DNA of 64,000 bases from Polynucleobacter sphagniphilus (lineage in GTDB: Bacteria > Pseudomonadota > Gammaproteobacteria > Burkholderiales > Burkholderiaceae). Of the stretch, positions 23,832-26,765 are shown one piece after another. Position 1 is the stretch's first letter, and the number at the start of each line of letters is the position of its first letter. The position numbers were made by a program, and so were the translations under genes. The notes below the pieces were generated by a model. That model worked only from the letters and a program-made list of their open reading frames with translations, had not been told where the DNA came from and did not search any database. Location: assembly GCF_001953355.1 (NCBI RefSeq), contig NZ_MPIY01000006.1:1-64000 (forward strand), written 5' to 3'.

Positions 23832-24158
23832 ATGGCAATCGCCAAGAAAAAAGTTGCTGCAAAGAAACCAGCTGCTAAAAAAGTAGCTGCTAAGAAGCCT
23901 GCTGCTAAGAAAGTTGCTGCTAAGAAGCCTGCTGCTAAAAAAGTAGCTGCTAAGAAGCCTGCTGCTAAAAAAGTAGCTGCTAAGAAGCCTGCTGCTAAAA
24001 AAGTAGCTCGTAAAGTAGACAAAAAAAAAGTAAGTAAGCCTGCTGTGAAGAAAGCGGGCTCAGCTGTAAAAAAGTCCGTGGCTAAAAAAGCCGCGCCAAA
24101 GACTAGTTCTTTGAATACCGCTGCTGCTTGGCCCTTCCCAACTGGCACTCGTCCATAA
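23832..24158 (+). CDS. Histone H1-like Lys/Ala-rich nucleoid protein
   Basis: MAIAKKKVAAKKPAAKK..., five VAAKKPAAKK decapeptides, tail SSLNTAAAWPFPTGTRP; SD-like AGGAG upstream. Confidence 0.88.
   Translation: MAIAKKKVAAKKPAAKKVAAKKPAAKKVAAKKPAAKKVAAKKPAAKKVAAKKPAAKKVARKVDKKKVSKPAVKKAGSAVKKSVAKKAAPKTSSLNTAAAWPFPTGTRP
23853..24002 (+). repeat. 30-bp tandem repeat x5 within the H1-like gene
   Basis: Unit ~GTAGCTGCTAAGAAGCCTGCTGCTAAAAAA encoding VAAKKPAAKK; the last copies are near identical. Confidence 0.9.
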
Positions 24159-25238: not shown

Positions 25239-26765
25239 TTAAGGGTAAATCACGCTGACTCGATAGCCTGCAGCATTTTGAGGCAGTGAAATTGGCAGAT
25301 TGATAGAGAGAGCCTCTCCTGCGCGCACGCCGACTTGTGAAAAATCTGGATGAGATTCTTGCCATTCATTTGTAAGCCATTCTTGAGGCGTAAATTGCAT
25401 AGACTCGATCTCATTTTCTTCTGCATCGGTGATCACCAACACCAAATTAGGAGGCAAAACGGGCAATGCAAGTTTATTTTGTAGCTCCACTTGCAGGATT
25501 GAATGATTAGGGCCGCCTTTAAGGCCCTCTCGCGCGTTTTCTGGTGATAGTGTGGCAGAAGTTATTTTCCATGCTGAAAAATCGCTTAGAGGGCGATTCA
25601 CGCACTTTGCTGCCTGACAAATTTTTTCATCTGCGCTGAGTAAAACTGTAAATGCTTTTACAGCAAGTGGATTTGAACTGCCATCGATGTTCGTAGCAAG
25701 TTTCGGTAGTAAGAAATTGCGTGATAGGTGCTCACCAAAAATGATGAGCACTAGCGCGCATAGAACGATCAGAGCTAATTTAAGACTTTTTTTTTGAGCC
25801 GAAGCGAGTGAGTGTGTTTTTGTAGAGTCACTTTGGATTGCTAAAGTGCCATGCAAACAAACCCAACCGTCACTTTCTTTCCAAACCGAGAGTGTTAACC
25901 ACTGGCTATAGGTTGCAATCACCTCTTCAGCTTGTCTGGCAAGAACACCGGATAGAACGATTCTGCCGCCTGGGCGCATTTTGTTGACTAGTGCCGGAGC
26001 AAGTACTTGCAATGGGTTGGCAAGGATATTGGCCATCACAATGTCGTATTTTGTTTCTGCAGCCAACTCTGGAGCACCTTCGGTTGGCAATACAAAGCGA
26101 ATCACGGTGTGATTAATCTCCGCATTACTGCGCGCCGCGACCATAGCTTGGGGATCGATATCGGTTCCTACTACGGGATTGCAGCCAAGTTTTGCTGCTG
26201 CAATCGCTAGAATTCCGGACCCACAGCCGTAATCGAGCAAACTTTGCTTTTCTAGATTGGTATTTTGTTCAAGCCACAATAGGCATAAATGGGTGGTGGG
26301 GTGACTGCCTGTACCAAATGCTAATCCTGGATCGACTGCAAGACAGATTGCATTGGGATCAGTAGGGGTGTCATGCCAAGAGGGGACTACCCAAATACGC
26401 TCGCCAATTTGAATGGGTGCAAACTGACTTTGGGTAAGGCGAACCCAGTCTTGCTCCTCAACTATTTTTTCTTGTGGGGCTGTCAGTGCAAATCCAGCTT
26501 CTTTCAAGGCAATCAGCAATTGCGGAATGAAGTTTTCTGCCCCAGAATCGTCAATATCGGGATTGAATAGCGCTGTGACTGAGGATCGATCCCAGGCCTG
26601 CACTTCTGGTGATAAGCCAGGCTCTCCATAGAGGGGGTTTTCGTCGTAGCCACCTGCAGCATCATCTTCGACGGTGACTGAAAGCGCACCCAATTCAAGT
26701 AATGCATCACCCAGGGGCTCTGCAGTCTCGGCTACTACGGTAAAGATTAACTCACGATAAGACAT
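25239..26765 (-). CDS. prmA: Fusion: ribosomal protein L11 methyltransferase PrmA + TM/DUF3426-like C-terminal domain
   Basis: Prm[60 protein letters not shown]. Then [25 protein letters not shown] and a DUF3426-like domain ending [11 protein letters not shown]. Single frame of 508 aa. Confidence 0.88.

Follow-up and report, generated by a model that had tools for sequence, protein, structure and literature searches.

Within a 64,000-nucleotide stretch of the Polynucleobacter sphagniphilus genome (contig NZ_MPIY01000006.1, positions 1 to 64,000, hereafter the window), a single open reading frame joins the ribosomal protein methyltransferase PrmA to a membrane helix and a DUF3426 domain, and a run of nine A's lies at the joint. 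In Escherichia coli, PrmA is a 31 kDa protein that methylates free ribosomal protein L11 (PMC3347575). The question raised by this locus is whether the gene yields only a membrane-tethered enzyme, or whether the run allows a soluble enzyme to be made from it as well. The features referred to in the text are as follows (window coordinates).

25239..26765, minus strand: prmA–DUF3426 fused open reading frame, 508 aa
25845..26759, minus strand: PrmA domain, residues 3–307 (PF06325, 280 bits; TIGR00406, 227 bits)
25785..25844, minus strand: basic and variable linker, residues 308–327 (from comparison of linkers)
25787..25795, minus strand: run of nine A's (nine T's on the plus strand), proposed slippage site (from conservation among fused genes)
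25780..25782, minus strand: TAA stop reached with one A added, giving a PrmA of 328 aa with the end AQKKKS
25775..25777, minus strand: TAG stop reached with one A lost, giving a PrmA of 329 aa with the end AQKKVLN
25725..25784, minus strand: transmembrane helix, about residues 328–347 (from sequence and a predicted helix)
25251..25772, minus strand: DUF3426 match, residues 332–505, predicted periplasmic (PF11906; model pLDDT 90)

Along the 508 residues, a complete PrmA comes first, then a basic linker, a single transmembrane helix and DUF3426. The match to Pfam PF06325 is full-length (280 bits against a cut-off of 22, E = 3e-83), and the score for the prmA equivalog TIGR00406 (227 bits) exceeds its cut-off of 183. 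After the transmembrane helix, Pfam PF11906 gives 51.4 bits against a gathering score of 27.7. The first-pass annotation had proposed an in-frame union of PrmA with a membrane helix and a DUF3426-like domain; the profile searches of the 508-aa frame bear out both the union and the identity of the C-terminal domain. An AlphaFold model of the C-terminal part, built on a 35-sequence alignment, comprises two helices, of which the long N-terminal one is the transmembrane helix, and a beta domain (mean pLDDT 90). The tethered topology is supported. A cysteine pair in the alignment of this part is common to most relatives, outgroups included. A profile search of PDB sequences with the DUF3426 part returned nothing credible. 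Compared with PDB folds, the model was most similar to the beta-sandwich of the Wzt sugar-binding domain, a weak match (E = 0.002, TM score about 0.35), and assignment of a function from these beta-sandwich matches was dropped because they are too weak.

PrmA is encoded once in this genome; other matches to its profiles are partial and resemble other methyltransferases. DUF3426 occurs in the fused frame only, and a search of the genome for Zn_ribbon_5 found none. Upstream of the fused frame, in the same direction, lie two genes that we take from their reading frames to be accB and accC. A histone H1-like open reading frame built of repeated AAKKPAAKKV units is found at 23832–24158 on the plus strand.

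The fusion is a property of the genus. Among 100 Polynucleobacter genomes with a match, 85 carry the fused gene. Separate genes with no A-run occur in 7, a split at the nine A's in 3 and a broken DUF3426 part in 2; the last 3 are contig-end cuts or marginal matches only. Chance readthrough in one strain is ruled out by the 85 genomes. No full-length fused match was found outside the genus among the matches listed from 300 genomes of the family and 399 of the order; listed matches from other genera cover the PrmA part alone. Outgroup genera within the family have, directly after prmA, a separate gene for a protein with an N-terminal CxxC...CxxC zinc ribbon, a transmembrane helix and DUF3426, as the first-pass annotation had stated for Burkholderiales. 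This second gene is still separate, with its zinc ribbon already gone, in a deep-branching clade of the genus as defined by GTDB (L035–L041); in the remainder of Polynucleobacter the ribbon-less gene is joined to prmA. The proposed loss of the ribbon agrees both with its presence in the outgroups and with the lack of Zn_ribbon_5 here. Two records labeled “Acinetobacter phage” (CAKLQH020000004.1 and CAKLQF020000002.1), which resemble bacterial contigs, place prmA beside a gene with an MJ0042 finger domain, and this suggests that the neighbourhood of prmA and a finger gene exists outside Burkholderiales. A literature search, with most subscription journals outside its scope, returned no paper joining PrmA with DUF3426 or PrmA with transcriptional slippage.

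Linkers were taken from 110 loci, and 97 distinct fused genomes were counted. The run is exactly nine A's in 84 of these, ten in 1 and seven or fewer in 12. At least nine A's are therefore present in 85 of 97 fused genes, versus 9.2 expected when codons for the same peptides were resampled synonymously with the codon usage of the genome. Nothing else in the linker is invariant: the rest of its sequence varies, and the distance of the run from the WVCL motif ranges from 24 to 88 nt. It occupies phase 1 (CAA AAA AAA A) in 76 genomes, phase 2 in 5 and phase 0 in 4 (the ten-A case included), which indicates conservation at the level of DNA and not of a single peptide. Runs of at least nine A's never occur in the PrmA or DUF3426 parts of the same fused genes. 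In a 417-kb sample of the P. sphagniphilus genome, 369 sampled open reading frames contain 3 runs of at least nine A's, that of the fused frame included. A run of nine was noted in a 983-aa frame (L094 11947–14895, oriented coordinates) and one of ten near the end of a 243-aa frame (L101 14233–14961, oriented coordinates). A set of named GTDB records that overlaps with these genomes has nine A's in 65 of 73 cases, and most exceptions belong to one subclade with seven A's followed by G's (A7GGG); six to eight A's followed by G's stand at this place in a subclade with L137, L139, L141, L191, L198, L199 and L202. Note that all these counts are not independent because the genomes share ancestry: there are 10 groups below 85% PrmA identity, 6 of them with nine A's, and 6 changes of state of the run are needed on the tree.

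The other two frames close soon after the run. In 74 of 85 genes, the stops of both alternative frames end no more than 24 nt from it, where 13.9 would be expected by synonymous resampling, and the stop reached with one additional A ends within 12 nt in 70 of 85 (21.1 expected). In the main phase, the residue specified by the second codon after QKK varies (L, P, V, I, F, S or T), and the T before AA that forms the stop is usually kept despite the changing residue.

We propose that an ancestral prmA and a downstream gene for a transmembrane DUF3426 protein were joined in Polynucleobacter, and that nine A's at the joint were retained to serve as a site of programmed slippage. On this run, RNA polymerase would stutter and produce mRNAs of differing A-length. 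Those with nine A's (or nine plus or minus three) would encode the 508-aa membrane-tethered PrmA–DUF3426, and those with one A more or less would reach an immediate stop and yield a soluble PrmA about 328 aa long. The single-copy gene would in this way supply both a cytoplasmic L11 methyltransferase and a form bound to the membrane, whose DUF3426 domain would be periplasmic. We assign a probability of roughly 0.7 to the reading, made from sequence comparisons, that programmed slippage gives these two products from one gene. Confidences for this reading and for the alternatives below overlap and should not be expected to add up to one. The first-pass annotation had placed L11 methylation at the membrane; the topology supports a tethered form, but the membrane is probably not the sole site, since a soluble PrmA is very likely also made. 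Given a conserved run with the signature of slippage, membrane-only methylation is probably half the story.

Several lineages depart from the rule. Three genomes (L032–L034) show the reverse arrangement, in which the frame following the nine A's stops within 12 nt, such that annotation would show split genes, and one extra A opens a 593-nt frame for the transmembrane DUF3426 part. Between the run and the transmembrane helix, L033 contains no ATG, GTG or TTG, L032 a single GTG and L034 a single TTG; a TTG is also found upstream, inside prmA, in all three. On the tree they fall inside the fused clade, where their sister is L045, a fused genome with ten A's. The reversal and its placement suggest that both free PrmA and PrmA–DUF3426 are retained and that only the default product changes. 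Some lineages are fused without the run of nine (L058–L060, L062–L067 and L130), and in the deep set formed by L062–L067 and L130 there is no run at all; the fusion alone appears to be viable there. Finally, L042 and L043 (genomes G016 and G022) are degraded, with the DUF3426 part broken by stops, the PrmA part intact and, in L042, eight A's in place of nine. The tethered form therefore seems not to be indispensable in these two.

The same two products could also arise if ribosomes, rather than RNA polymerase, slipped by −1 on A_AAA_AAA. This heptamer is present in frame, and the sole tRNA-Lys among the tRNAs found has the anticodon UUU, which is reported to promote frameshifting by the ribosome at E. 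coli dnaX (PMC5009743). A Shine–Dalgarno-like element upstream of the run was found in 0 of 88 genes, and no consistent hairpin was found downstream of it in these genes, where folding is near random (mean z about −0.5). The lack of either stimulator argues for transcriptional slippage. Moreover, a heptamer would not require nine A's, yet the run keeps that length whatever its codon phase. Judged from these sequence features, slippage is more likely transcriptional than ribosomal, and we consider −1 frameshifting unlikely.

A further alternative is that only the fused protein is made, and that the nine A's reflect a Lys-rich peptide, AT-rich codons and shared ancestry. The fused lineages that lack the run and the common descent of all the genomes agree with this view. 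Against it stand the excess of the run over its synonymous expectation, the differing codon phases and the excess of alternative-frame stops, as well as the use of AAA at only about 70% in other Lys columns of the same genes. Amino acid constraint alone is disfavoured as the source of the run by the synonymous shuffling and the three phases, and we regard production of the fused protein alone as distinctly unlikely.

Runs of A's are slippery for DNA polymerase too (PMC3711429), and flips between nine and ten A's and between fused and split genes occur within one clade, as would be expected if replication slippage toggled the DUF3426 part between cells. A locus that switches in this manner should vary in length and be accompanied by out-of-frame strains; the run is exactly nine in 84 of the 97 fused genomes, which makes phase variation very improbable. 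The first-pass annotation had raised the run as a site where an indel might have joined two genes, but it is conserved across the genus and has the hallmarks of programmed slippage. An error of assembly or sequencing as its source is ruled out by its presence in dozens of independent isolates and metagenome-assembled genomes. Internal initiation in the linker, which would also yield a free transmembrane DUF3426 protein, scarcely deserves credence: an in-frame ATG, GTG or TTG is present in 33 of 85 linkers, but with a Shine–Dalgarno-like site at 0 of these 33, and the other 52, the window's own among them, have no such codon.

Programmed slippage at prmA would have close precedents. In Thermus thermophilus dnaX, RNA polymerase slips on nine A's in a single open reading frame, and the short form arises from nearby stops in the other two frames (PMC5009743, PMC1088944). 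As in that tau/gamma system, the prmA run lies within a long frame with both other-frame stops just after it. The two differ in that the choice at prmA would be between a membrane-anchored and a soluble enzyme, that slippage is here predicted from sequence and that the default flips in some lineages. Slippage at tssM1 of Citrobacter rodentium (eleven A's) and tssM3 of Yersinia pseudotuberculosis (nine A's) likewise produces two forms, one long and one short, and recoding can account for either (PMC4256274); the prmA run would do the same. The tssM genes serve type VI secretion and their slippage was demonstrated experimentally, whereas that of prmA is a prediction. Selection against such runs first shows at a length of nine in a large proportion of the bacterial genomes analysed in one study (PMC1088944).

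The two protein parts also have separate counterparts. The PrmA part matches its family over the full length, but unlike E. coli PrmA, which has neither a transmembrane helix nor DUF3426, it is fused to both. In Caulobacter ZitP, the periplasmic DUF3426 domain recruits CpaM for pilus assembly (PMC5182063). The fused protein shares with ZitP and other proteins of the zinc ribbon–transmembrane–DUF3426 type a helix followed by a DUF3426 domain, here predicted to be periplasmic; it lacks their N-terminal CxxC-CxxC ribbon and has PrmA as its cytoplasmic domain instead. The pilus role of ZitP should not be transferred to PrmA–DUF3426 without a test.

We infer that slippage occurs at this site, mostly during transcription, and that the two products are both functionally relevant. 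We give somewhat better than even odds to a broader proposal, in which a genus-wide, programmed site of transcriptional slippage in a single-copy gene of the translation apparatus splits PrmA between the cytosol and the inner membrane, the default flips by lineage with both products retained, and the membrane form links L11 or another substrate to the envelope.

Few conserved cellular roles of transcriptional slippage are known to us from bacteria. In one survey, IS elements formed the largest group of slippage cases (PMC1088944), and others include dnaX and secretion genes. If our reading is true, prmA would provide a genus-wide case of slippage in a conserved ribosome-modification gene, one that sets where an enzyme sits. 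Mutants of E. coli prmA have a normal appearance (PMC3347575). If the proposal holds, a lineage in which PrmA is retained in free as well as tethered form would give direct access to the role of L11 methylation.
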